A stretch of DNA of 36,051 nt, from contig JAQULZ010000009.1 of NCBI GenBank assembly GCA_028718375.1, positions 1 through 36,051 of the forward strand, read 5' to 3'. A program made the translations under genes and the position numbers. Source of the stretch: Victivallaceae bacterium (GTDB lineage Bacteria > Verrucomicrobiota > Lentisphaeria > Victivallales > Victivallaceae). Below are positions 1-19,901 of the stretch, in pieces. A model generated the notes under the pieces. The model was not told the origin of the DNA and searched no databases. It saw nothing but the letters and a program-made list of their open reading frames with translations. Numbering within the stretch: position 1 is the stretch's first letter; each line of letters opens with the position of its first letter.

Positions 1-931
1 TCTGACAGCGGTCACCGAACCATTCGCAGTTTTCATCCGCGTGGCAGCCGTAAAAACACGGTTCAAACGCCCAGTGATAATCCGAATGTCCCAGGATCAT
101 TCCCTTGTTCCACATCAGCACCTGTTTGGATTTGAGCCCGGCTTCAATAATGGCGGTTTCAAACTGGATGTGGTTCCTCGACGCATACCAGATATAAAAA
201 GCCCGTTTGCTTTTGAGGCGAGATTTGATATTCCTGAACGCCGCCAGCAGGAATTCGGATAAGGCGTCGCCGCGCAGATCGTCGTTTTCGATAATTTCCC
301 ACTCGCGTCCGTCCGGATTATTCACGCCCCGGTAACTCACTCCATAAGGCGGATCGGTAAAGACCATATCCGCCTGTTCACCGCACATCAACGCCTCGAC
401 GTCAACACTCACGGTCGAATCTCCACACATCAGGCGGTGATTGCCGAGCTGATAAATTTCACCGCGTTTGCTGACCGGTTCATCGGGAACTTCGGGAACC
501 TCGTCCGGGTCGGTCATGCCCTCGGTTACCACCTCGTTGCCGTTGAGAATTTTATCGAGTTCGTCGGCATCGAAACCCAATAATGACAAATCAAAATCCA
601 TATTCTGGAGATCGGCCAGTTCCAGCGGCAGCAAGTCGTAATCCCACTCCGCGATATTCCCGGTCTGGTTGTCCGCGATCCGGTACGCCTTGACTTTTTC
701 CGGCGGCAGATCAGCCGCGATATGTACCGGTACGGTTTCCAGTCCCATTTTTTTCGCGGCCTTCCAGCGGGTATGCCCGACGATGATAACGCCATCGGCG
801 TCCACTACTATCGGCTGGCGGAACCCATATTCCTTAATGCTGGTAACCACCGCGTCCACCGCATTATCATTAATGCGCGGATTGTGTTCATACGGAATAA
901 TTTCATTAATGTTTCTTTGTTCGATCTGCAT
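1..931 (-). CDS. ParB N-terminal (nuclease/sulfiredoxin-like) domain fused to N6/N4 DNA methyltransferase, 3' end outside window
   Basis: Manual minus-strand translation from ATG at 931 (RBS ggaggtct): MQIEQRNINEIIPYEHNPRINDNAVDAVVTSIKEYGFRQPIVVDADGVIIVGHTRWKAAKKMG...; downstream GEIYQLGNHRLMCGDSTV...MVFTDPPYGVSYRG has the DPPY motif. Open to the window edge; absent from the ORF track because it is partial. Confidence 0.93.
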   Translation of the reverse strand, partial: MQIEQRNINEIIPYEHNPRINDNAVDAVVTSIKEYGFRQPIVVDADGVIIVGHTRWKAAKKMGLETVPVHIAADLPPEKVKAYRIADNQTGNIAEWDYDLLPLELADLQNMDFDLSLLGFDADELDKILNGNEVVTEGMTDPDEVPEVPDEPVSKRGEIYQLGNHRLMCGDSTVSVDVEALMCGEQADMVFTDPPYGVSYRGVNNPDGREWEIIENDDLRGDALSEFLLAAFRNIKSRLKSKRAFYIWYASRNHIQFETAIIEAGLKSKQVLMWNKGMILGHSDYHWAFEPCFYGCHADENCEWFGDRCQ

Positions 932-1007
932 AGAGACCTCCTGAATTTTGAGCCGGTTTTTGTTAGAAAACGGCATGGGTTAAATGCCCGGAACGGGCGA
1001 AAAGTGG

Positions 1008-1207: not shown

Positions 1208-2368
1208 TTAATACGGGAAACGGCCATACGGGTTCTCGTATTCGCGCCTTCTGCCGTAGGGATCGATAGCGCGGTAAACTTTCCTGGCGGAACGGTCGCC
1301 GGTAGCGCGGCCAAATTCCAGCCCGACCTGGGCTTCCACGGTTTTGGCGAAATTCCGCTGTTCGAACGGTACGGACAACTGGGCCAGAAAAGTATCCGCG
1401 ATCCGTTTGCCGAGTTGTTCCGGATAACGCCGGATGGCGCTCGGCGAAGGTATCGTTAGGCGGTAAAACAACGTATCGTCGAAAGTAATGAACCCGATGT
1501 CACTTCCGATCTGAATCCGTTTGGACTGCAAATAAAAAAACGCCGGCTGCGCCTGTTCTACCCGGTGAAAGAACACCGAATCGAGCCGGATATTCTCATC
1601 TTCCAGCCACGATTTTAATAATTTCAGCGCCTCTTTTTCATCTTTCGCATAGCCCGCCGCCATGGGTTCGCCGTTGAATTCCCGTAGCGCCTCCCGGCAG
1701 CCCCGGAGGAATTCCTGTCCGTTGTATACCGGGCAGCCGATCAGGCCGATGCGTTTGAAGCGGCATTCGATTAAATGTTTTGTGCCGTGATAGCCGCCGG
1801 CAAAATCGCCGTCATCAACCCGCCAGCAGTCGGCTCCGTCCGGGCCGCGTCCGATGAAGGTTACCGGGAACCCGTCCCGAACCAGAGCAGCCAAAGGCAT
1901 ATAGCCGTTGATCATTTCCGGCGTCGCCGAGATCATCGCCCCGGAATAATGCCCGGCTACCAGTTTACGGATCATTTTTCGGAACGCCCAGGCGTTGCCA
2001 TGATGTTGCTGGATATCCAGTTTCCAGCCTGCGCACTGGAGCCAGACGCCGATCTCTTTCGATACCCGCCGCCAGTGTTCCGAATCGGTATCGGGCAAAA
2101 GCAGCGCCGCGCTTTTCAGACTTTCCGGCAGTTCCGAACGCACCACGGTCCCGCCGCCGAAACGGCTGGATACCAGTTTCTCTTTCCGCAGCAGTTTTAT
2201 GCCCGCGGAAACGGTATTCCGATGCAGGCTGAGTTCTCCGGCCAGCGTGTTCACGGCAGGCAACGCTTCTCCCGGCCGGTATTCACCCAGCCGGATTTTC
2301 CTGCGGACATAATCGGCAACAAACCGATGGCCACGGGCCGGATTGGATTCGAGATTTTCGTGTGTCAT
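1208..2368 (-). CDS. GntR-type winged-helix regulator with LacI/periplasmic-binding-like C-terminal domain
   Basis: ADYVRRKIRLGEYRPGEALPAVNTLAGELSLHRNTVSAGIKLLRKEKLVSSRFGGGTVV (GntR wHTH), then LacI-like sensor (RFKRIGLIGCPVYNGQEFLRGCREAL...SDIGFITFDDTLF). Confidence 0.88.
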   Translation of the reverse strand: MTHENLESNPARGHRFVADYVRRKIRLGEYRPGEALPAVNTLAGELSLHRNTVSAGIKLLRKEKLVSSRFGGGTVVRSELPESLKSAALLLPDTDSEHWRRVSKEIGVWLQCAGWKLDIQQHHGNAWAFRKMIRKLVAGHYSGAMISATPEMINGYMPLAALVRDGFPVTFIGRGPDGADCWRVDDGDFAGGYHGTKHLIECRFKRIGLIGCPVYNGQEFLRGCREALREFNGEPMAAGYAKDEKEALKLLKSWLEDENIRLDSVFFHRVEQAQPAFFYLQSKRIQIGSDIGFITFDDTLFYRLTIPSPSAIRRYPEQLGKRIADTFLAQLSVPFEQRNFAKTVEAQVGLEFGRATGDRSARKVYRAIDPYGRRREYENPYGRFPY

Positions 2369-4970: not shown

Positions 4971-7181
4971 TTAGCCCCAGCCCGGCGGGGTTTTGTCGGC
5001 AAAATAGCGTCCGTCGGCGTATGACAGAATACCGCGCTCGACCAGTTCCGCCAGCGCCTCATCGCGTTCTTTTCTCGTTGACCCGTATCCGGCATAGTTC
5101 GAAATGTCGCTCCGCAGCGCTCCCTTCGGCGAAAACCTGAGGACGGCTTTGAATATTTTCTTGAACAGGCGCTCCCGCAGTTTGGTGAATTCATTGCCGT
5201 CGTCGACGCCCATCAGCATGCGTTCGGCATGAGCAAAGAACCACTGCAGCAGAACGGCGGTCTTGCGCCAGACTTCATCCGTAATCACCACTTCCTGACT
5301 GAAATCGAGATCGGCCACCGACAACATGACCGCAAGTTTGGGACCGTATTCGTTGATCAGGCGTTTCCAGGACGAATACATTTTCTCATGGCTCAATTCC
5401 CTGAACATCTTGAACAGGCCGCCGAGATAATCCTCGGGAATCGCCACCAGCCCGCGTTTACCGCGAAAAGCGTCGATCCGCAGGCTCAGTTCCCGGACGG
5501 ATTTATCCAGATCTATCCTGGCCGGGCGTCCGTCGAAATCCGGCATTCTGCAGAACAGGAAACGCCCGAGAAACCCGCTGCTGATATCCTGCTTATTGAC
5601 GACGATATCGAATATCTCCGGCTGGATATGCGCGATAATGCTGGGAAAACAAAAGCGCGCCGACCGGGTGCTGACTCCATGTCCCCGAGCCGAAAAAGCA
5701 TGCTCAAAAGAGCCCTTGTTGAACACTTCCGTCAAAAACGTCGTGGCTTTGTGCTGCCAGTGCCTGGGATCGAGCCAGTTCTGCAGTTCCGAAATGGTAA
5801 TGAGCCCGTTATTGGTTTTAACCAGGGCGTCGGCAATGCCCTCGGCGCTGCCCGCGCTGGCGATCTTCCAGCCGTATCTTTTTGCCGTCAGGTCGAGCAG
5901 GTTGCCGATGTCTTTACCGGAAGTCGAAGGCGCGGCCAGCATGATGTAGCAGTTGCTGGCAAGCCCGCCGGCGGTATCTATGCGGAGCCGCGCCAGGGTA
6001 ACGCCTTCTTCCACGATCATGTTCAAATCCGAGGAACGCGCGTTGTCTTTTTCACTCAACGCGCACCCGGCCAAGACGATCGCCTTGGGCAGCGTGGCCG
6101 CCAAGGGCAGCGGCGGTCTGGTTACGGCGCTGAACAATTTTACCGTCGCGCCCAAAGAGGTGCCTTCCAGTAACGCGATGACATCGGCGTCGGTAATTTC
6201 GCGCCACGGCTTTTTCTGTTCCGTTTCTTTGGTACTTGAGGTTAAAATCGCCGAAATATCCACATCGCTATTATCCGGGAGTGGATCGCCATAGCCTTTT
6301 GAGGATAATTCCCCGGCGGCGAGGGAGTATTCTCCGTAACATTCCAACAGGGTATAAACCGCGAACGGGGAATAGCTTTTCCAGGGCTCGAACGGGGCGG
6401 CGTTGGAGCTGAAGACGAAAAACGTCCGGTCTTTCAATGATGCCGAGCAACTGCCATGGTCTTTTCCCGGGCGGCGGTAATAATCGTTGTCGTTTTTGTT
6501 GTAAAGATATTTCCAGCCGTGTTTTTCCAGCAGGGCTTTGACGTCGCCGCGCTGATTGAAATCCTCTCCGGGCAGCAGACCGGAGGATGAGGTTCTTTGC
6601 ACCGGTTCCGGGTCGGCGGATATCCAGTGCTCGTTCAACTGCTTGGCGGATGACAGGAGAATATCGCGCTGGTTTTCGGTGAGCGTCGGGATTGTGGTAA
6701 AATCTCCCTGCAGGAGCTCATATTTCGGCGTCGGAGCGCAGAGAAAGAGCCCGCCGGCGCCCCGGGTTTCGATCAGCGTGGTCAGCTTCCCGTTGCGCTG
6801 TCCCTGGGCAAGTTTCATATTGCCGGAAACCTCGGCGTCGCAGCGGTAAATGACATGCCAGCCGCCGGATGGCGTCTGCTCGATCACCAGGCGGTCAAGC
6901 AGCGGCTTGGCCCGGTCGCCGACCAGGTTTGACCAGGGATCGAAGAGTTCGCCGCCATTGTCGAAGTCGATGATCTCCAGGTTTTCAGAGGCTTTGCCGG
7001 TAACGATGCACAGCGCCTCGTGCGCGTTCGAAAACCAGGCGTTTACTTCCGCCTCGGTCGGCCGCCGTTCCTGATAAGCTTTCCAGCTTTTGAGCGCGGG
7101 GCACTTTTCCTTTCGCTTCGCCGGCAGAACGCTCAAGCCGTAATCACGATAGGTTTTTGCTGTTTCAAGAGGTATTCGCAT
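4971..7181 (-). CDS. Prim-Pol (bifunctional primase/polymerase) N-terminal domain plus DUF3987-like region, phage replication protein
   Basis: AKTYRDYGLSVLPAKRKEKCPALKSWKAYQERRPTEAEVNAWF...IIDFDNGG...ETRGAGGLFL (Prim-Pol-like); C-terminal NCYIMLAAPSTSGKDIGNLLDLTAKRYGW...ADALVKTNNGLITISELQNWLD (DUF3987-like). Confidence 0.85.
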   Translation of the reverse strand: MRIPLETAKTYRDYGLSVLPAKRKEKCPALKSWKAYQERRPTEAEVNAWFSNAHEALCIVTGKASENLEIIDFDNGGELFDPWSNLVGDRAKPLLDRLVIEQTPSGGWHVIYRCDAEVSGNMKLAQGQRNGKLTTLIETRGAGGLFLCAPTPKYELLQGDFTTIPTLTENQRDILLSSAKQLNEHWISADPEPVQRTSSSGLLPGEDFNQRGDVKALLEKHGWKYLYNKNDNDYYRRPGKDHGSCSASLKDRTFFVFSSNAAPFEPWKSYSPFAVYTLLECYGEYSLAAGELSSKGYGDPLPDNSDVDISAILTSSTKETEQKKPWREITDADVIALLEGTSLGATVKLFSAVTRPPLPLAATLPKAIVLAGCALSEKDNARSSDLNMIVEEGVTLARLRIDTAGGLASNCYIMLAAPSTSGKDIGNLLDLTAKRYGWKIASAGSAEGIADALVKTNNGLITISELQNWLDPRHWQHKATTFLTEVFNKGSFEHAFSARGHGVSTRSARFCFPSIIAHIQPEIFDIVVNKQDISSGFLGRFLFCRMPDFDGRPARIDLDKSVRELSLRIDAFRGKRGLVAIPEDYLGGLFKMFRELSHEKMYSSWKRLINEYGPKLAVMLSVADLDFSQEVVITDEVWRKTAVLLQWFFAHAERMLMGVDDGNEFTKLRERLFKKIFKAVLRFSPKGALRSDISNYAGYGSTRKERDEALAELVERGILSYADGRYFADKTPPGWG

Positions 7182-8882: not shown

Positions 8883-10571
8883 TCAAAACGGGATGTCGTC
8901 TTCATCGAAATCATCGGAACCATTGTATGGATCGGTATCATTCCAGCCGGGTTCTAATGCGTAGTCGGGAATTTGGGTGAGTTCATAATCAACCACCCGG
9001 TCGTATTTTTCCCCGGCAACCGATTTAACGATGATCTTCCGGGGAACGGCCAGCGCACCGTCCGAGGCCAGATTTACGGCCTCCTCGGCGGTATGCGGCG
9101 GGGGGACTTTGCTACGGTTCCGCCACCAGGATTCAAACTTGGCCCGAACCCAGCCGGAATGCTCCGGGCAGACCCATTCGCTGATGCTCTGCATAAAACC
9201 GATACTGTATTCAACCCGCATGGTTTTGGGAGCGTCCTCCGGCGCGCCGCGCTTATGGTGAACGCTGTATTCAATACTGTGGACGTCGTAATCGGTATAG
9301 CTGGTCTGACCGGATAAAATTCCGGCTGATTCGGCTTTCGAGGTGATTTTCTGCTGTTCCTGCTGGAGAAACTGATAGCCGCAGTCGGGACAAGTCATAT
9401 AGCCGGCGTATATCACCGAATAACACTCCGGGCAGGTCTTGGCCGGGGCTTCGCCAGTACCGTTGCCGGGTTCTTTTACCCGGACCATATCCACTGGCCC
9501 GTGGCGCATGATGTTGCCGCCGTAGTCGAGGACAAGCGTATTTTCTTTGCCGGGATGCAGGCGAAACCCGCGGCCCACCGACTGATAATACAAACCGGGC
9601 GAGTTTGTAGGGCGCAGTAAAACCACACAATCGATACAGGGAGCGTCAAATCCGGTAGTCAGCACTCCTACGTTAACTAAATATTTCAGTCTGCCCGATT
9701 TAAAATCATCCAGGTGCTGGGAGCGAAACAGCGACGGCGTATCCCCGAAAACACATTCCACTTCCAGATTGTAATCCTGCCGCAGTACTTTGGCGATATG
9801 CTCGGCATGTTTAATGCCGGAGGCGAAAATCAGGCAGGAATGCCGATTGGCGGTATAGCTGACAATCTCATCGCAGGCGGCAATGACCAGATTATCTTCA
9901 TCCATCAAATCTTCCGTTTCGGAAGCGATGAATTCACCGCCGCGTACATGAAGACTTGAAGTATCCGGGACACGTTTTCCGGCCTTGCTGATCAGCGGAC
10001 ATAAATATCCCCGGTTTATCAGTTCTTTGACTCCAATCTCATAGCAGATATGATTCAGGAGATTGTCTTCTCCGCAAATCATGCCCGATTTCATGCGGTA
10101 CGGCGTTGCGGTCAGGCCGATAAGGCGGACGTTCGGATTGATTTCTTTCATATCCTGCAAAAACGAGCGGTAAATGCCATCCCCTTCGATCGGTACGGTA
10201 TGGACCTCGTCGATCAAAATGAGATCGTAAAATCCCAATTCTCCGGCACGCTTGTACACCGACTGGATACCGGCCACAATTACCGGTGCTAGGGTATCCC
10301 GGCAATTCAAACCGGCGGAATACACTCCCACCATCAAATCCGGCGCGATAGCGTTCAGTTTTTCCACCGCCTGTTCAAGCAGTTCCTTGACGTGAGCCAG
10401 GATCAACACCCGTCCGTTCCATCTTGAAACCGCATCGCGGCAGATAGTAGTGATAACCGGAGTTTTGCCCCCGGCTGTGGGAATTACGACTACCGGATTG
10501 TCATCCCGCGTCCTTAAATGTTCATAAACCGCCTCGACCGCCTGTTGCTGGTAAGGTCTAAGCTTGAACAT
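8883..10571 (-). CDS. DEAD/DEAH-box helicase (superfamily II)
   Basis: MFKLRPYQQQAVEAVYEHLRTRDDNPVVVIPTAGGKTPV (Walker A), LILIDEVHTVP (DE-H), LIGLTATPYR, YYQSVGRGFRLHPGKENTLVLDYGGN; C-terminal CPECYSVIYAGYMTCPDCGYQ zinc ribbon. Confidence 0.95.
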   Translation of the reverse strand: MFKLRPYQQQAVEAVYEHLRTRDDNPVVVIPTAGGKTPVITTICRDAVSRWNGRVLILAHVKELLEQAVEKLNAIAPDLMVGVYSAGLNCRDTLAPVIVAGIQSVYKRAGELGFYDLILIDEVHTVPIEGDGIYRSFLQDMKEINPNVRLIGLTATPYRMKSGMICGEDNLLNHICYEIGVKELINRGYLCPLISKAGKRVPDTSSLHVRGGEFIASETEDLMDEDNLVIAACDEIVSYTANRHSCLIFASGIKHAEHIAKVLRQDYNLEVECVFGDTPSLFRSQHLDDFKSGRLKYLVNVGVLTTGFDAPCIDCVVLLRPTNSPGLYYQSVGRGFRLHPGKENTLVLDYGGNIMRHGPVDMVRVKEPGNGTGEAPAKTCPECYSVIYAGYMTCPDCGYQFLQQEQQKITSKAESAGILSGQTSYTDYDVHSIEYSVHHKRGAPEDAPKTMRVEYSIGFMQSISEWVCPEHSGWVRAKFESWWRNRSKVPPPHTAEEAVNLASDGALAVPRKIIVKSVAGEKYDRVVDYELTQIPDYALEPGWNDTDPYNGSDDFDEDDIPF

Positions 10572-11242: not shown

Positions 11243-11698
11243 TTATCTTCCCCACGGCGCGGCATCATTTTTCTGCGGCGGGGGAGCGGCGGGATTGGCA
11301 GACGCGCCTTTGGGAGCGAAGCCTTTGATCTCGTTGGTGATCTCATCGGCGTCATCGCGCTTTTTGCATTTGACCGTGATTTCCAGCGGCAGATTGTGCA
11401 GATCGGCGGAGTCCTTCAGCGTCATTACATTGACCGCCCGGCAGATGGCCGAGAGGTTCCCCCTGGCGATTTTCACCGCGTCGGCGCTCGGGTTGTCGAT
11501 GTTCAGCCGCGTCCAGACTTTGCGCCCTTTGAACTCACCCTCGACAATTTCAAAGGTAAGTTCCAGGAACTGGCCGTTGCCGGACTTGGTCGGTTTGATT
11601 TCCGATTCGCTAATTACCGCTGTGTATTTCCCGGCGGGTACCGGTTCTAAAGCCACATTCGGTTCCACGGTGTTTGCGTCAAAATTAAGCGTTGCCAT
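11243..11698 (-). CDS. DUF669 family phage protein (putative ssDNA-binding/recombination accessory)
   Basis: MATLNFDANTVEPNVALEPVPAGKYTAVISESEIKPTKSGNGQFLELTFEIVEGEFKGRKVWTRLNIDNPSADAVKIARGNLSAICRAVN...; C-terminal NDAAPWGR tail. Confidence 0.88.
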   Translation of the reverse strand: MATLNFDANTVEPNVALEPVPAGKYTAVISESEIKPTKSGNGQFLELTFEIVEGEFKGRKVWTRLNIDNPSADAVKIARGNLSAICRAVNVMTLKDSADLHNLPLEITVKCKKRDDADEITNEIKGFAPKGASANPAAPPPQKNDAAPWGR

Positions 11699-11847: not shown

Positions 11848-12073
11848 ATTCCGCCTCCTGTTTGGGAAGTTCTTTCAAATCCACATCAGGATACCGGGAG
11901 ATGATTTTCCCGGTTTCCGAATCGGTTTTCGTCAGCCGCATCGCATAATGCCGTTTGCCGTAATAATCGTTCAAGAGTTTGAGATCACGGAGCGCATCCT
12001 TCCTGAAATGGTAGACGACGCTGACAATCCGGCGCGATTTGCGCCGGTAGATGACCCAACTGCGCCGGATCAT
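11840..12073 (-). CDS. Hypothetical phage protein (77 aa)
   Basis: MIRRSWVIYRRKSRRIVSVVYHFRKDALRDLKLLNDYYGKRHYAMRL...; start overlaps upstream stop (12070-12073) and end overlaps the next gene. Confidence 0.65.
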   Translation of the reverse strand: MIRRSWVIYRRKSRRIVSVVYHFRKDALRDLKLLNDYYGKRHYAMRLTKTDSETGKIISRYPDVDLKELPKQEAEYG

Positions 12074-12840
12074 TTTTCCGCTCCGTTGCCGGTCATCGCC
12101 GCCATGAACGCGTTCCAGGACAACGGCAGTTCGGCGGGCAAATTAAAACGGTTTTTAGCGACGCAGGCCGGGCCGCCGACTGTACGGAGTATCCGTTCGC
12201 CGCCCTCCGCTCCGACTGGCGCGGCGATGGTGCGTTCCCGGTTGAATCCGGCGTCCTCTTTCTGCGTCCTGAACTTACGGGTGGCGAACAGTACCGCATC
12301 CACCCATTCGGAAATCAATGCGTTGGCGTGTTTGTGCAGCCTTGGCAAATAACGGTCGTAGGCGGAAGATTCCGGATCTTCAAACTTTTCGATCTTGGAA
12401 TGGGCGATCAGGATGCAGGCCATGCCTTTTTCATTCCGCAGCGCATCCAGCATATTCAGGATTTTGCGCCAGTGAGTTAAAGCATGGGTGTAGCCGCGGG
12501 CATAGCCGCCGTCGGCTTTTTCGATGCTCCGTACCCCGTATTCCCGGCAGACTTCATCGAAAATCAACCGTTCCAGCCAGTCGAGACTGTCGATAGTAAC
12601 CGTCTGGAAATCGTGTTTTTCCTGATAGAGCGCGTTCAGTGCTTCCATGACATCGGAAAAACTGTTCGCCAGCGGAAAATTATGGCAGTCGATTTCTGAT
12701 AATCCGTCCTCGGTCGGCACAAAAATCGCATTCGGCGCGGACGCGGCCAACGAGCTTTTGCCGATACCCTCGACTCCATAGACTTCGATTCTCGGCGGCA
12801 TCGGCTGTTTTCCGGATTGAATATTTTCAAGCAGACTCAT
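12070..12840 (-). CDS. Phage nucleotide-binding ATPase (AAA_24/Sak4-like RecA-type recombinase)
   Basis: PPRIEVYGVEGIGKSSLAASAPNAIFVPTEDGLSEID (Walker A), QTVTIDSLDWLERLI (Walker B), ACILIAHSKIEKFEDPES. Confidence 0.9.
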   Translation of the reverse strand: MSLLENIQSGKQPMPPRIEVYGVEGIGKSSLAASAPNAIFVPTEDGLSEIDCHNFPLANSFSDVMEALNALYQEKHDFQTVTIDSLDWLERLIFDEVCREYGVRSIEKADGGYARGYTHALTHWRKILNMLDALRNEKGMACILIAHSKIEKFEDPESSAYDRYLPRLHKHANALISEWVDAVLFATRKFRTQKEDAGFNRERTIAAPVGAEGGERILRTVGGPACVAKNRFNLPAELPLSWNAFMAAMTGNGAEK

Positions 12841-12893: not shown

Positions 12894-12953
12894 AAGCGCA
12901 TAGCGCGAAGTATGAAGCGGTATATCGCCATCCGTCGTACGGATTATACTTCG
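12894..12953. repeat. Multi-stem palindromic element overlapping the stop codon of the ParB-like gene
   Basis: Outer stem cgaagtat (12906-12913)/atacttcg (12946-12953); inner atccgt-cgt-acggat; flanking cgcttc-c-gaagcg just upstream. Confidence 0.6.
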
Positions 12954-13651
12954 TTACCGTGACGGGTCAGGATTTTGGTCAGCACCAGGCTGAATTCATC
13001 GAAAAGCCGCTCGGAAAGCCGGTTCTCGGCAAACTTCAGGATTTCGGCCAGCGCATCCTGTTCTTCCTTGGTCAACGGGACTATTTCTGATTTGGGTTTA
13101 TTCCGGTTGACTGTGCGGTTGTAGGCGGCATTGATCGACATTTTGCCGGACTGGACCGCAGTCTTGACATCTTCCGGCGCACGATCCATTACGGTTCTGG
13201 TTTGTTCGATTTTTCTTGTAGATACGCCTAACAAAGATGCCGTTTTTTGAGCTGATTTTCCCAGAGCGCAATCTTGCGCTCTGGAAGGCTTTGGTAACAA
13301 ATTATTAATTAATGGCATTCGTTTATCCAATTCCTCCATGCACTTCATAATCTCAAAATCCTTTAAGTTTCTGCGGTTGCGCTGGCAGCGGATGGCGTAC
13401 TGCAGTGCTTCGTTTTCATCAGAGAACGCCTTCGGCATGACCGGAACGTCGAATATTTTGGCCTTTCTGGCCGCGCGCAGCCGGGTATGGCCATCGATCA
13501 CAGTGGTATCATGACCTTCCCAGACGACGATTGGCTGACTGCGGTCATAGCCGTTTTTCTGCATGTCCCAGTAGACGCGATCAAGCACTTTCTCGTTGAT
13601 CGGAAACAAGTCCCGGAACGGCGGCGCCGTTTTTAAAAATTCAATATTCAT
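12944..13651 (-). CDS. ParB-like partition/nuclease domain protein with HTH
   Basis: DRVYWDMQKNGYDRSQPIVVWEGHDTTVIDGHTRLRAARKAKIFDVPVMPKAFSDENEALQYAIRCQRNRRNLKDFEIMKCMEELDKR...AQKTASLLGVSTRKIEQTRTVMDRAPEDVKTAVQSGKMSINAAY. Confidence 0.92.
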   Translation of the reverse strand: MNIEFLKTAPPFRDLFPINEKVLDRVYWDMQKNGYDRSQPIVVWEGHDTTVIDGHTRLRAARKAKIFDVPVMPKAFSDENEALQYAIRCQRNRRNLKDFEIMKCMEELDKRMPLINNLLPKPSRAQDCALGKSAQKTASLLGVSTRKIEQTRTVMDRAPEDVKTAVQSGKMSINAAYNRTVNRNKPKSEIVPLTKEEQDALAEILKFAENRLSERLFDEFSLVLTKILTRHGNEV

Positions 13652-13688: not shown

Positions 13689-14483
13689 TCAAATGTTGAT
13701 AATGCGGATTTCCTCGTAGCCGGTCGGCCAGAGATTTTCGGCGCGGCACTTTTGTAGCCGCCCGATGGCGGCGGCGTTTTCCACTTCGGCCAGGTCTAAG
13801 GATTCATCCGAAATCCTCCAGACGCCGCAGCGGAACGGTTCGTGTTTTTCCACCGCGATCAGATGGAACGGATGATTTTCGCCGGACGCTTCCCGAAGTA
13901 TGGCGCGATAAAAAGCCGCCTGATATACGTACTGGAAACGCCGGGCGTCGGCTTCGAAATAATCGAGGTTGTCGCAGGTCTTGAGATCAATAATGCCGTT
14001 TGTTTTATGGAAAAAGTCCATTCTGATCTGGCACGGTACGCCGCAATATTCGGCGCGGATTACGCTCTCGGCAATTCCGTCCTGAAGTAGTTCGGCCGCC
14101 ATATTATGCAGTTGGACCGCCGTTTGCAAACGCCGGATAAAATCAAAGTCTGATGGCGAGATCACCGCCTTATCCTGCTCTTCCAGCCAGGACTGATACG
14201 CCTGGGTATTCTTCCCGTAGGGCTTGCCGGTGTTCGGGTTGACCGGTTCTCCGACGATATATTCAGCGTCGAATTTATCGCGGCCTTCCAGAATCAGGCT
14301 GTGCGCGGCGCGGCCGATGACATAAGCCGGGCGGTCCTCGTCGATAATTGCGCCGGTCTCTTTTTTATGGAATAATTCCGGGCATTTGCGAAAATCCGCC
14401 AGTGAGTGGCTGGACAAAAACCGGTCTCTTTTGGCGTGATATTCTTCCGCGGGTTCGATAATGATGTAATCAGGTTTGTTCAT
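13689..14483 (-). CDS. PD-(D/E)XK exonuclease (DUF3799/RecE-like phage exonuclease)
   Basis: Start at MNKPDYIIIEPAEEYHAKRDRFLSSHSLADFRKCPELFHKKETG...YVIGRAAHSLILEG...CQIRMDFFHKTNGIIDLKTCDNLDYFEADARRFQYVYQAAFYRAIL (D...D-x-K). Confidence 0.9.
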   Translation of the reverse strand: MNKPDYIIIEPAEEYHAKRDRFLSSHSLADFRKCPELFHKKETGAIIDEDRPAYVIGRAAHSLILEGRDKFDAEYIVGEPVNPNTGKPYGKNTQAYQSWLEEQDKAVISPSDFDFIRRLQTAVQLHNMAAELLQDGIAESVIRAEYCGVPCQIRMDFFHKTNGIIDLKTCDNLDYFEADARRFQYVYQAAFYRAILREASGENHPFHLIAVEKHEPFRCGVWRISDESLDLAEVENAAAIGRLQKCRAENLWPTGYEEIRIINI

Positions 14484-14583
14484 GGGAAAATCCTTTTTTG
14501 ATGATAAATTTTGCGCCTTCTCTATATATCTTTTGCAAAAACGATGTGTTTTGGCGGCGAAAAAAGGTACGGGAAACGTTTTT

Positions 14584-15204
14584 TTACCGAAAGTTTCTCC
14601 ATTCGCGTAAAATTCCGGCCAGTTTTTCCGCGCAGGCGTCAATAAAAGAGCGCGGAACTTTCAACTTTTTCGCCACTTCCCGGCGAGGATGTTTCCGCAG
14701 CAGTTCGCAGGCCCGGCGCTGGAGCGGAGTAAGGTGCGAACAGAGATATTCAATATCCATGTAAAAATCGGCAACCGGCGGACAACATTGCGGCAGAATG
14801 CCGAAAAGCAGTTCATGGTGGGTATCGACGAATTCCAGCAGTTCCACGCTTTCACCTTCGTCGAAACAGACTTTTTCATTCAGCGAAATACAGCGGCGGT
14901 GCCAATCCTTACCCGGTGACAAGCGGTGGCGCAGCAGACCATAAAGATGCCGGTCAACGATGCACCGTATCAAATTTATCGGAATCAGGCCTCCGGGATT
15001 ACAATCCCGGGTACCAATTACCGCCGCCGCCATCAGTTCCTGTTCAATGTCCGGCAGATCGTGTTCCTTATAACCGGCCTTGCCGATGGCTCGCGATGCT
15101 GTTGTCCGGACAATCCTGACGATAAAAGGATTAATGCCGGTGTAAGAGTTTTTTGAGTGATAACGCCATGCCGGCGCTTCCGCGGGTTCTTTTTCCTTAT
15201 CCAT
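14584..15204 (-). CDS. Sigma-70/ECF-like RNA polymerase sigma factor (phage-type)
   Basis: KAGYKEHDLPDIEQELMAAAV (region-2-like), C-terminal LTPLQRRACELLRKHPRREVAKKLKVPRSFIDACAEKLAGILREW (region-4 HTH). Confidence 0.7.
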   Translation of the reverse strand: MDKEKEPAEAPAWRYHSKNSYTGINPFIVRIVRTTASRAIGKAGYKEHDLPDIEQELMAAAVIGTRDCNPGGLIPINLIRCIVDRHLYGLLRHRLSPGKDWHRRCISLNEKVCFDEGESVELLEFVDTHHELLFGILPQCCPPVADFYMDIEYLCSHLTPLQRRACELLRKHPRREVAKKLKVPRSFIDACAEKLAGILREWRNFR

Positions 15205-15365: not shown

Positions 15366-15417
15366 AAAAAAAATGCCGAATCTTAACCTTTTTTTGCAAA
15401 AGACATTGATTCGGCAT
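15366..15417 (-). terminator. Intrinsic terminator of the 15434-19082 operon
   Basis: Minus strand: ATGCCGAATC...25-nt loop...GATTCGGCAT followed by a run of Ts, just 3' of the stop at 15434. Confidence 0.75.
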
Positions 15418-15433
15418 CAAAAAAATAGAAAAA

Positions 15434-16744
15434 TTACAAATGCCAGTGGACTATTTTTTCGGGAAAATATCCGGGATTATATCCATATCTAATCGTATCA
15501 CGAAAATGTATTGCAAGTAATTCATCGTGAAGGTACATTTTTTCGATAGCAAAGATTACAGCTTTTCTAAATGCGTCTGCGATTCGTTTCATCTGATTCG
15601 CAAGTTTTTTCCGTTGCCCGGCAGGAGCCACTGCTTCGTATATGGCTACGGTAAGGCAATCCAGATCTTTCTGTAACTGTTCCGCCATTGAATTATTTCC
15701 TGATTTTTTTGCTTTTCCCAATTCTTCAGAAATTAACATGGCTTCCTCACGGTATTGTCGGATTGCAGTTTCGTCGGCGATATTATCGGCCCCCGTTACC
15801 GGAGCATCGTGAAGCGAAAAACCTTCTTCAAATTCGTCCATATCCACACGATCGATTGAAATATAATCCTCAGATTCACCGGAGATGCCACGCATTATTT
15901 CAACAACCGGAGTAGCTGTATTTGGCCGCTCCAGCATAAAATGCAGATAGTTTGCGCCGGTATTACCGGTTGTTAACATAAACTTTTCACCACCATCGAA
16001 ACGCATCTCCCACGCATCGCCGCACTTACGGAATATGTTTTCCGGCTCGGGTTCCGGTGCCGGTGCCGACGGCGTTACCAACTGCGCCAAGTTGCATTCC
16101 CGGATTAATTCCAATTCCGTTTGAACATTGAAGTCGAGCACTTCATTCAGCGGCACAAACGCCGATCCCATATCATTTAAGATTTTCTCACTGGTTCCGT
16201 AGATGACTTTCCGGGCGGTTACCAGCAGAATATATGGTTTGTGTTCTGCACAGTTAAGCCGGTAGATCAGGTCCATGATCTCGTGATTCCAGCTTTTCAA
16301 GGTCAAATAAACCGTTGCCGACTTGCTGCCGGACAACGGAACCACACCCAGTTTCCAGGTGTCTTCTTCTTTGCCGAACTCCTCGATATGCGGGATGATT
16401 TTGAATATTTTTACGATCTCCGGCAGCAGGCCGCTGGGTTTGACGGTGAAAAACAGCACGTCGGTTTTTTCAATATCGTATTCCTTCTGCCGCCGTTCCC
16501 GGCATACCGCTTCATATTTACCTTCCCATTCATAGACCTTTCTGAAACCGCAGGACAGATCGCATTGGTCAGGGCAGGTAATAACCTCCGCCATTTTCCC
16601 GGTCGGAGCCAGATATTGTCGTTGCAGCTTGTCAAAATTAAGGCTGTCACCGAGTTTTAAGCGCCAGTCGGCCAGCGCCGCTTCGGCACTCAGGCGTTTA
16701 CTGATAAAAGTCCAGAAATTTTCTGTTTTATTGTCTTTGCTCAT
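15434..16744 (-). CDS. Uncharacterised protein: N-terminal PTGK/Cys-rich segment plus C-terminal module resembling one found in large bacterial signalling ATPases
   Basis: NFDKLQRQYLAPTGKMAEVITCPDQCDLSCGFRKVYEWEGKYEAVCRE...TWKLGVVPLSGSKSATVYLTLKSW...; C-term FRKCGDAWEMRFDGGEKFMLTTGNTGANYLHFMLERP...IRQYREEAMLISEELGKAKKSGNNSMAEQLQKDLDCL...YNPGYFPEKIVHWHL. Start overlaps upstream stop (16728-16744). Confidence 0.85.
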   Translation of the reverse strand: MSKDNKTENFWTFISKRLSAEAALADWRLKLGDSLNFDKLQRQYLAPTGKMAEVITCPDQCDLSCGFRKVYEWEGKYEAVCRERRQKEYDIEKTDVLFFTVKPSGLLPEIVKIFKIIPHIEEFGKEEDTWKLGVVPLSGSKSATVYLTLKSWNHEIMDLIYRLNCAEHKPYILLVTARKVIYGTSEKILNDMGSAFVPLNEVLDFNVQTELELIRECNLAQLVTPSAPAPEPEPENIFRKCGDAWEMRFDGGEKFMLTTGNTGANYLHFMLERPNTATPVVEIMRGISGESEDYISIDRVDMDEFEEGFSLHDAPVTGADNIADETAIRQYREEAMLISEELGKAKKSGNNSMAEQLQKDLDCLTVAIYEAVAPAGQRKKLANQMKRIADAFRKAVIFAIEKMYLHDELLAIHFRDTIRYGYNPGYFPEKIVHWHL

Positions 16745-17864
16745 GTTTGAATCCTCTCTTTATCAGCCATTCTTCGATTTTGCGGCCGTCATCGTCATAT
16801 TTAAATTCGGCCAGGTTCCCGGCCTTGATTTTCACCATGCGCACCGCTTTTGAATCCGTGAATTTTACCCGGAATTTGGCGCTGATGATTTTCGCGTTTT
16901 CCAGTAATTTCAGCTTCAGGCCGCTGATAACCTGCATCGCCAGATCACCATGAATAGCGGCAATTTCGCCCTTCGCAGTAGCAAATTTGCATTGCACCAG
17001 CGTAACGGATTCCATACCTTCAATTTCTTTACATTCCAGCGCTTTTTCGCTATCTTTCACCAAAGGCTCCAGCGTAAACACATCGTCGCCGCTGAAAAAC
17101 TCTCGGTCGCCGTAGAACACATATCCGAATATGCTGCGGTAGGCTTCGACGATCCACGGAGCCTTGCGGTAGATCGCCAGCCGAATTTCCGAAATTTTCG
17201 GTCGCAGTATTACAATGTCGAAGCGTTCGGGGCGGTAATATATATTGTTAGTTTTGCCTTCAGGCGTGATTGAACTATCGCGGGTGAGCGGTTCGCCCTT
17301 GCGCAGCAGGAAACAGTATTCGTCCGGCTCCTCGAAAACGACGATCCTGATTGTGCGCCCCCGGCGTTTCCTCTGGAAAATCCGGTTCAACAGCCGGGCG
17401 AGCTTCTGCCGTAGATTACGGCTCGGCGGCGCCATTTGCTGTTTTTTTATGGACTCGCCGTAGAAGTAAATGAATGACCGCGGCACTTTACTGCTGAATT
17501 TGGCGTGAAGCTGTTCCAGCTTTTTAGGTTCATTAAGCCAGAGCAGTAAGGCCAAGTCGGCGGCCGAAACATCGTCGCCAAGTTTAGCTGAATACGGCTT
17601 ATCGCCGACCACGTCCTGCAGCAGATCGAAATTGCGGTCGGCGGACATTTCGTCAATCAAAGCCAGGGCATCGAACATCCTGGTATTGATTTTACCTGTC
17701 GGCGAGGCTAGTTGCCGACCCAGTTTGTCATAATCAACGGTTCCGTTATCTTTCAGACCAATACCAAATTCCGGAAAACGGTGCAGGAACGCCAGCAGCA
17801 GTTTCGGTGCGACATAACGTAAGAATTCCGGCTTTGAAAACCGGCGTAAATTATAGATTTTCAT
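16728..17864 (-). CDS. Uncharacterised protein sharing the DKLxRQxxxPTGK segment with its neighbour
   Basis: Start at MKIYNLRRFSKPEFLRYVAPKLLLAFLHRF (SD ggag upstream); VDYDKLGRQLASPTGKINTRMFDALALIDEMSADRNFDLLQ...; later FRPERFDIVILRPKISEIRLAIY...YRSIFGYVFYGDREFF-like segment. Confidence 0.82.
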   Translation of the reverse strand: MKIYNLRRFSKPEFLRYVAPKLLLAFLHRFPEFGIGLKDNGTVDYDKLGRQLASPTGKINTRMFDALALIDEMSADRNFDLLQDVVGDKPYSAKLGDDVSAADLALLLWLNEPKKLEQLHAKFSSKVPRSFIYFYGESIKKQQMAPPSRNLRQKLARLLNRIFQRKRRGRTIRIVVFEEPDEYCFLLRKGEPLTRDSSITPEGKTNNIYYRPERFDIVILRPKISEIRLAIYRKAPWIVEAYRSIFGYVFYGDREFFSGDDVFTLEPLVKDSEKALECKEIEGMESVTLVQCKFATAKGEIAAIHGDLAMQVISGLKLKLLENAKIISAKFRVKFTDSKAVRMVKIKAGNLAEFKYDDDGRKIEEWLIKRGFKHEQRQ

Positions 17865-17964
17865 ACGACTCCAAAATGCAAGAGCCGCAGAATGCCAACG
17901 GAAACAGCTCGGAGGAGAGAAACAAGCCATTTCCATTCAGACATTCATGCGGCAAGTTTAAGAA

Positions 17965-18645
17965 TTATTCGTCGTTGTCCTTTTGCTGGAGCGCGACGAT
18001 AATACCACTCCAGATATCCTGCATTATTTTGGATTTCGACGCGCGCGAATTTCCTGAAAGCTTATCCGCAGCTTCTTTCAGACCCGCTTCAAGCTCGGCG
18101 AGGCGTTCTTCCTCGGGCTTATCCCAAGCTTTGTAGAGCTCGATCAGGGCCAGCCTGACCTCTTTGATGGCCTTTACGTAGAATGCGAGTTTTGTATTGA
18201 CTAGGCGTTCCAGAGCGTCATGGAGCGCCGTTTCCAAAGCGTCCAGGCACGAATTTCCGGTTGCCCGGTGTTTAGGCAGACGCTGGTATTCCGGCTTTGC
18301 TTTTTCCTTCGGCTTCTGCTTACGCTTCGGTTTGGGGGCAGAAATCGGCTGCGGTTCAGGAGCCGGCTCGGGTTTGGCAGATTCAGGAGGAGTTTTCGTC
18401 ACTTCGGGGTTCTCCGGCGAATCGGTTTTATCTGACTTTGGCGGATTAAAAATTCCCGCTATCCATTGATGAAGTTGTTTCATAACTTCCAGCCTGGCTT
18501 CAACCTGCTCTTCAATATTTTTGAGCCGTTCGATCTCAGCTTCAATCGGCTGCAAAAACGGATTACACGGCTTTCCCTCCCGGTCTCTACGGACCATATC
18601 TCTCAGGATTTCGTCTGCCAGTCCGGCAAAAATAAGACGTAACAT
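17965..18645 (-). CDS. Uncharacterised coiled-coil protein with Pro/Lys-rich linker
   Basis: MLRLIFAGLADEILRDMVRRDREGKPCNPFLQPIEAEIERLKNIEEQVEARLEVMKQLHQWIAGIF...PEPAPEPQPISAPKPKRKQKPKEKAKPE...; same strand and operon. Confidence 0.75.
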   Translation of the reverse strand: MLRLIFAGLADEILRDMVRRDREGKPCNPFLQPIEAEIERLKNIEEQVEARLEVMKQLHQWIAGIFNPPKSDKTDSPENPEVTKTPPESAKPEPAPEPQPISAPKPKRKQKPKEKAKPEYQRLPKHRATGNSCLDALETALHDALERLVNTKLAFYVKAIKEVRLALIELYKAWDKPEEERLAELEAGLKEAADKLSGNSRASKSKIMQDIWSGIIVALQQKDNDE

Positions 18646-18761
18646 AATTTGATTCCTTCTTTATTCATGTTAATTGGTTTTAAGTTAATCGGGCGGATTT
18701 GTGCGGCCCGCCCATACCGCGTGGTTGTTATTTCATAGGCATTCCTCCGGTTTATGTTTTT

Positions 18762-19082
18762 TTATTTGAAATTCATTTTGATTTTCTCCAGAAACCCGGT
18801 GATTTCATCTCCCAGCTTTTTGAAATCTTCCGACTTGAAAGAACGCTCGGGGTCTTTGAGAAATCCCGCAACTTTTTCCAGTGTGGAAACCAGTTCGTCC
18901 GTAACCGCCTCTTCAGATTTTTCTTCTTTTTCGCTCAATGCCCCCCGCAAGCCTCTGCGCAACTCGCCGGCTTCGTAACAAGAGCTGGCACTGCGGCTGT
19001 CGTTCAAAACCCCAATTGCATTCATGGCCAGTTGTTTCAGTTTTCTGTGGATTCGAGAACCGTCCATCACATGTTTTTTCAT
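18762..19082 (-). CDS. Uncharacterised small helical protein
   Basis: MKKHVMDGSRIHRKLKQLAMNAIGVLNDSRSASSCYEAGELRRGLRGALSEKEEKSEEAVTDELVSTLEKVAGFLKDPERSFKSEDFKKLGDEITGFLEKIKMNFK; first gene of the operon. Confidence 0.65.
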   Translation of the reverse strand: MKKHVMDGSRIHRKLKQLAMNAIGVLNDSRSASSCYEAGELRRGLRGALSEKEEKSEEAVTDELVSTLEKVAGFLKDPERSFKSEDFKKLGDEITGFLEKIKMNFK

Positions 19083-19158: not shown

Positions 19159-19207
19159 AAAAAAAAAGCGCGCCGGAAAGTGTATAAATACACCATTTCC
19201 GGCACGC
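19159..19207 (-). terminator. Strong intrinsic terminator on minus strand, no recognised gene upstream
   Basis: GCGTGCCGGAAA-tg-GTGTA-TTTA-TACAC-TTTCCGGCGCGC (12 bp + 5 bp stem) followed by T9 on minus strand. Confidence 0.8.
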
Positions 19208-19742
19208 CTTTTGTTAGAAGAATAAAGCTTCTTTAAGCTTTTTATTTCCTTCAAGCGATGCCTGCTGACAGCCCTTTCCCCAAAAATAATTTCAGGGACA
19301 ATACTGCCCGCCGTTTTTATCGCTTATTTATATATCACATTGTTTCACCTCGTTATTATTCCAGTTTTCCACTATGGTATGCGGCCTTCACTTCTTCAAG
19401 ATGCAGGCCCACTACCGTTTATCGTTAGAAATCTTTCAATTCCTGTTACTTGTTCAAGCATGATCTACTATTATTTTATCATTGTCAAACAATGGGTATT
19501 TATTTGACATACTTTTTTAACCTGTACCAAGATATAAAACTCAAGTGGATTCATTCGGCTGACTGTCGCCATAATTTTGAATATCCCCCCATTTTTGTCA
19601 TTTTTCCAAACCCGGTGATTGAAATCAATAACGAGCCCTTATTTTATTTCTCCGTGTAGCCCATTTTACAATCGGCAAACTCAAAAAACATCCATGACAT
19701 ATCTTCTTTATATTATAAAAATACCTTATTTGGGGTAAAAGT

Positions 19743-19755
19743 CGTAAAATTTACG
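19743..19755. promoter_or_regulatory. Perfect palindrome cgtaaa-a-tttacg upstream of the regulator promoter
   Basis: Located 9 bp upstream of the TTGACA box at 19765. Confidence 0.45.
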
Positions 19756-19764
19756 GAACCGCTA

Positions 19765-19793
19765 TTGACATCTGGCTATTCTCAGGTTAATAT
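19765..19793 (+). promoter_or_regulatory. Sigma-70 type promoter for the catabolic locus regulator
   Basis: TTGACA (19765-19770), exactly 17-bp spacer, TAATAT (19788-19793). Confidence 0.72.
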
Positions 19794-19901
19794 ATAGATA
19801 TATAGCAATAAAGCAATATAAAAAGGTTAAATTTTGAAAAAATATTTGTTGAAAAAGTATAGCAGGGGTTGATGGGAGGTTTTTTAAGAAGGATTTAATT
19901 C

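Follow-up and report, generated by a model that had tools for sequence, protein, structure and literature searches.

The window, the whole stretch of DNA analysed here (36,051 nucleotides; contig C9 of a draft genome), was studied by reading its open reading frames, by folding, and by comparison with relatives. An initial annotation had described four consecutive minus-strand ORFs of 106, 226, 378, and 436 aa bounded by terminators, the last two overlapping, and the sequence bears this description out: the genes, which we call P4, P3, P1, and P2 in that order, include a 17-nt overlap between P1 and P2 (16728-16744), and folding yields a hairpin with a T-run at either end.

About 19163 to 19212, minus strand: strong hairpin and T9 run just upstream of P4, a leader terminator or attenuator (-35.9 kcal/mol, z -6.3)
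18762 to 19082, minus strand: P4, 106 aa, the first gene; small and charged, its ATG preceded by the ribosome-binding site AAAGGA
17965 to 18645, minus strand: P3, 226 aa; helical ends with a Pro/Lys-rich linker between them
16728 to 17864, minus strand: P1, 378 aa; RdgC/CENP-N-like predicted fold, conserved partner P2
15434 to 16744, minus strand: P2, 436 aa; four-cysteine N-domain and C-terminal HTH-type helical tail
16085 to 16723, minus strand: P2 N-domain, residues about 8-220, pLDDT mostly 80-95
15437 to 16051, minus strand: P2 C-terminal tail, residues about 232-436, helical; such a tail also ends the QatC-like protein of locus L045
About 15372 to 15418, minus strand: intrinsic terminator after P2, hairpin and T-run (MFE -20.2 kcal/mol, z -3.4)

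An alternative P1 start, an ATG at 17936, would give 402 aa; we set the start at the ATG at 17864 (378 aa) because GGAG lies ahead of it and it opens the conserved family start MKIYNLRRF. A simple terminator scan listed neither flanking hairpin, the downstream one being missed because its loop exceeds the 3-8 nt limit of the scan. The upstream hairpin (19163-19212), like 19260-19900, belongs to a long non-coding stretch ahead of the operon, and promoter-like sites lie beyond the hairpin, so that antitermination may be required for early transcription.

None of the four proteins matches a named family above noise in Pfam, PHROGs, or NCBIfam, in agreement with the earlier reading that they carry no phage replication or structural motif, and P1, P2, and P3 have no match among the PADLOC models at E up to 1. 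Because P1, P2, and P3 keep this order in other genomes and in phage contigs, the module is more than a chance arrangement, but the proposal of a four-gene unit stands for P1-P2, joined by P3 in close relatives, and not for P4. The true conserved unit is P1-P2; P3 is restricted to parallel elements within this genome and its genus, and to phage contig L063, and P4, for which 41 genomes gave no relatives, is found only in the window. The suspicion of an undescribed system holds for the pair, a conserved module without a named family whose genes are found together elsewhere and whose homologs are not characterised structural or replication genes.

Prophage setting of the window

Downstream of P2, recombination and replication genes confirm the phage-like character that had been ascribed to the region.

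14584 to 15204, minus strand: ECF-sigma-like regulator, 206 aa, named by sequence reading with no Pfam match; follows P2 in close relatives
13689 to 14642, minus strand: exonuclease VIII (DUF3799), family match
12944 to 13651, minus strand: ParB-like protein, family match
12070 to 12840, minus strand: Sak4-like single-strand annealing ATPase, family match
11243 to 11698, minus strand: single-strand DNA-binding protein (SSB, DUF669), family match
8883 to 10571, minus strand: helicase
4971 to 7181, minus strand: Prim-Pol/DUF3987 primase-helicase
2 to 976, minus strand: phage-type ParB-methyltransferase, truncated where the contig stops; a sequence reading, the kind of gene being taken from a comparable gene of record G318 that has a PHROG match, and a relative of the gene at the end of phage contig L111

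RusA and Dam methylase genes also lie downstream on the strand of P1-P2. To the right of the operon stands a glycoside-hydrolase and regulator locus that resembles host DNA; together with the ParB-methyltransferase gene cut at the left contig end, this shows that the window holds the right part of a prophage, which extends beyond the window at that end. When the window was searched for direct repeats that could mark attachment sites, nothing but a 13-base AT-rich match turned up, which we attribute to chance; the contig does not reach the left end of the element. A GntR-LacI-type sugar regulator, possibly phage-carried, is encoded on the late side both in the window (1208-2368, minus strand) and in L046 (1-699, minus strand).

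P4-P3-P1-P2 head the early operon of this prophage in a Victivallales-type bacterium, and the best explanation of the element is an integrated phage of the tailed type, with its right-hand early region in the window; the same synteny with phage recombination and replication genes is found in elements that carry virion genes. The initial annotation had favoured a cargo, immunity, or signalling module over core phage machinery. The proteins are indeed more immunity- or signalling-like than virion- or replisome-like, but we reject free-standing cargo on account of the fixed synteny with the early operon, of which P1-P2 form the fixed first part in relatives.

The P1-P2 pair and its variable slot

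By profile search, P1 is encoded in 22 of the 289 genomes that were sampled across the phylum, and the relatives found by sequence are Victivallaceae/Victivallales MAGs. Two records labelled as Veillonellaceae and Bacilli MAGs (L060, L062) hold P1-P2 contigs identical or close to Lentisphaeria ones and are probably mis-binned rather than members of other phyla. P2 lies directly downstream of P1, always in this order, and as a rule the two overlap by some 14-89 bases (42 P1 reading frames, some loci being counted twice and three frames stopping at a contig end). The overlap fails in L099, where one gene intervenes, and in L112, where a 6-base gap does; in L067 and L109 the open frame taken for P2 begins further upstream, and L096 and L100, apparent misses, also have P2, with a tail of the window type. 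A single 709-aa frame in L097, with P1 at its start and an HTH at its end, is an apparent fusion. Both proteins occur in IMG/VR phage contigs, and tblastn with several family members found no relatives among GenBank phages and PLSDB plasmids. One 68-kb record (G318) unites P1-P2 with terminase, portal, tape measure, and integrase genes, and the presence of virion genes and an integrase beside the pair marks this element as a real tailed phage.

P2 also accompanies recombination genes without P1 (L046, L047, and L039-L041). The last three, on contigs C93, C55, and C174 of the genome that yielded the window (G000), are elements of the same kind with P2 of 273-287 aa. The module decays in some elements: P1 of L038 (L038/L057, G002:C202) carries a large internal deletion beside an intact P2, and two stop codons interrupt P2 in G003:C352.

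The recurring layout runs from recombinase, LexA repressor, or restriction-modification genes through P1, P2, and a sigma-like or excisionase-like gene to exonuclease, Sak4, helicase, and primase, not every gene being present at each locus. At six P1 loci (L042, L043, L044, L066, L113, and L114, with L044 and L066 near-identical in P1), the gene immediately upstream of P1 encodes a LexA-type repressor, the calls resting on NCBIfam lexA in L042 (below cutoff in L047) and on S24 plus a LexA DNA-binding domain in L114; in the window, no LexA/CI-type gene adjoins P1. Restriction-modification genes lie upstream of the pair at L093, L096, L098, L099, L106, L109, and L112. In L113, L114, and L104, P1 and P2 are still together, with the recombination genes encoded on the other strand. 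The conserved co-occurrence for which the initial annotation proposed a search is present. At loci with an evident phage context, which L090-L092 and L094 lack, the pair goes with the early operon rather than being scattered in defence islands.

The content of the slot before the sigma-like gene is variable, as in immunity regions. In L045 and L111 it holds QatB-like and QatC-like genes, the former called from frames containing MGH with Trp downstream, by comparison with the described QatB start motif (PMC13279940), and the latter by PADLOC and NCBIfam for L045 (NCBIfam QatC score 209.9, below the model cutoff of 280) and by Pfam QueC for both loci. The C-terminus of the QatC-like protein matches P2 tails, of the window type in L045 and of the 'WxD' type in L111, and L135 has a 'WxD' tail attached to yet another, third N-terminal region and followed by a 195-aa gene. 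P1-P2 thus share with Qat a prophage slot and kinds of tail, but P2 has no QueC domain and P1 no similarity to QatB; in Pfam, PADLOC, and NCBIfam, QueC or QatC matches were confined to the slot occupants of L045 and L111, with none for P1 or P2.

Predicted architecture of P1 and P2

A Foldseek comparison, suggested at the outset, was informative for P1 but not for the P2 N-domain, which has no fold match in the PDB. The AlphaFold model of P1 (AF2; pLDDT 79, pTM 0.76) matches RdgC (2owl/2owy, E 2.8e-5 to 6.6e-5, prob 1.0, about 300 residues) and CENP-N (E 1e-4); RdgC, CENP-N, and the yeast kinetochore counterpart take all of the 14 highest ranks among the PDB matches, and the best named matches in BFVD are phage RdgC proteins (E 1e-5), with TM-scores of only about 0.35-0.44. 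Profile comparisons, by contrast, were null: hhalign gave a probability of 0.3-0.4% against nine RdgC proteins and 0.1% against lambda RexA, Pfam including the RdgC family PF04381 returned nothing at E up to 1, and solved structures yielded only weak annexin-type noise. P1 therefore resembles RdgC and RexA by predicted fold, and its sequence gives no sign of membership. The model suggests that P1 may be a dsDNA-binding protein with the RdgC/RexA/CENP-N fold.

RdgC of E. coli and phages is like P1 in predicted overall fold and in its phage early/recombination setting but unlike it in sequence and profile (hhalign probability below 1%), and the constant P2 partner belongs to P1, having not been noted beside the RdgC genes looked at. 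CENP-N and Chl4 share the predicted fold but serve eukaryotic chromosome segregation and show 8-12% identity to P1; we infer no common role beyond DNA contact. The RdgC of Vibrio phage 51E28.1 (L122, 301-1461) has a C-terminal extension that by eye is like an FtsK-gamma/winged-helix domain, and so resembles another RdgC joined to a DNA-binding-type tail.

The family alignment of the P2 N-domain shows four invariant cysteines (C57, C61, C65, and C81) and conserved W130 and G133; this four-cysteine domain probably binds zinc. A profile search of P2 against solved structures found nothing. The tails of P2 are exchangeable and fall into three types: the type found in the window, a winged-helix-like type ('WxD'), and one like sigma-70 region 4. 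Of these, only the region-4 type has Pfam support; it is present in L112 and in the L097 fusion, where the Pfam match is below and above the curated cutoff, respectively. The names winged-helix ('WxD') and HTH (window type) rest on pattern and context, and confidence in the model of the window-type tail is low. From this arrangement, P2 would appear to be a regulator in which a sensor or partner-binding N-domain is coupled to an exchangeable HTH tail.

The P2 N-domain also occurs alone (about 210-250 aa), in 7 or more copies per genome within one genus (G005, G022, and G033; loci L005-L007, L011, L013, L014, L016-L019, and L048-L054). These units of roughly 600-1000 bases are 65-83% identical, have mostly unrelated flanks, and often lie near contig ends; the lone domain is possibly a mobile or amplified single-gene cassette.

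Proposed role in lysogeny control and alternative roles

An RdgC fold is reported for lambda RexA and Iml3/Chl4, and RexA is reported to bind DNA non-specifically and to bias the CI-Cro switch (PMC11077077); it is from these properties of RexA that our proposed role for P1 derives. The cI-rexA order of lambda has a parallel in several relatives, where P1 comes after a LexA-type repressor, but not in the window. P1 and RexA are without sequence similarity, and the partner of P1 is a cysteine-domain/HTH protein, whereas that of RexA is the membrane protein RexB. We propose, giving it about an even chance, that P1-P2 are a Rex-like immunity or early-control module at the head of the early operon, with P1 as the DNA-binding effector and P2 as the sensor or regulator, that controls lysogeny and possibly superinfection; in broader terms, the pair probably helps to set the dormant-or-active switch of the phage or its immunity. 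The P2 tail would bind operator DNA in the immunity region and the P2 N-domain would bind P1; P2 would set the place and expression of P1. P1 would clamp DNA and could (i) shift the lysogeny/lysis decision, (ii) restrain RecA-driven induction, or (iii) act on competing phages.

The pair could instead be chiefly an anti-phage superinfection exclusion system, with P2 acting as an infection sensor and transcriptional autoregulator, like QatB-QatC or RexAB. Proteins of the QatB/QatC type, with tails like those of P2, occupy the same slot and QatBC alone confers defence (PMC13279940), RexA-fold proteins function in exclusion (PMC11077077), and restriction-modification genes lie upstream at the seven loci named above; yet PADLOC has no match, no catalytic signature was seen, and the pair, where its context is phage, is bound to the early operon instead of being scattered over defence islands, and we regard this role as possible but rather unlikely. 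An improbable alternative, to judge from the loci at which P1-P2 are kept together and the recombination genes occupy the other strand, and from those at which P2 and recombination genes are found without P1, is that P1 serves recombination in an accessory role, as an RdgC-like clamp tuning RecA or the phage Sak4/exonuclease recombination, with P2 regulating the operon; the predicted fold, the place of the pair immediately ahead of exonuclease and Sak4 genes at many loci, and the many named phages that encode RdgC (430 records) speak for it. A toxin-antitoxin or RnlA-type RNase module, to which the P1 model points through a weak match with RnlA (E 0.036), is very improbable: RnlA chains rank well below RdgC/CENP-N, Pfam matches to RnlA or HEPN are absent, and P2 is larger than usual antitoxins.

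Tentatively, the prophages of this phylum might possess an immunity-region swap slot in which shared DNA-binding-type tails are placed on different sensor/effector heads: P2 with P1, QatC with QatB, and a third head. P1-P2 would then be a new two-protein switch/immunity system, and there may be a relationship between QatB-QatC-type defence and prophage control modules built on this plan.

An unnamed protein pair now has a testable role, and the RdgC/RexA/CENP-N fold is extended, as a prediction, to prophages of a phylum whose phages have been little studied, where it goes with one partner throughout. The shared DNA-binding-type tail links the QatB-QatC defence pair to a prophage control slot, so that how lysogeny control relates to phage defence can be put to a direct test.
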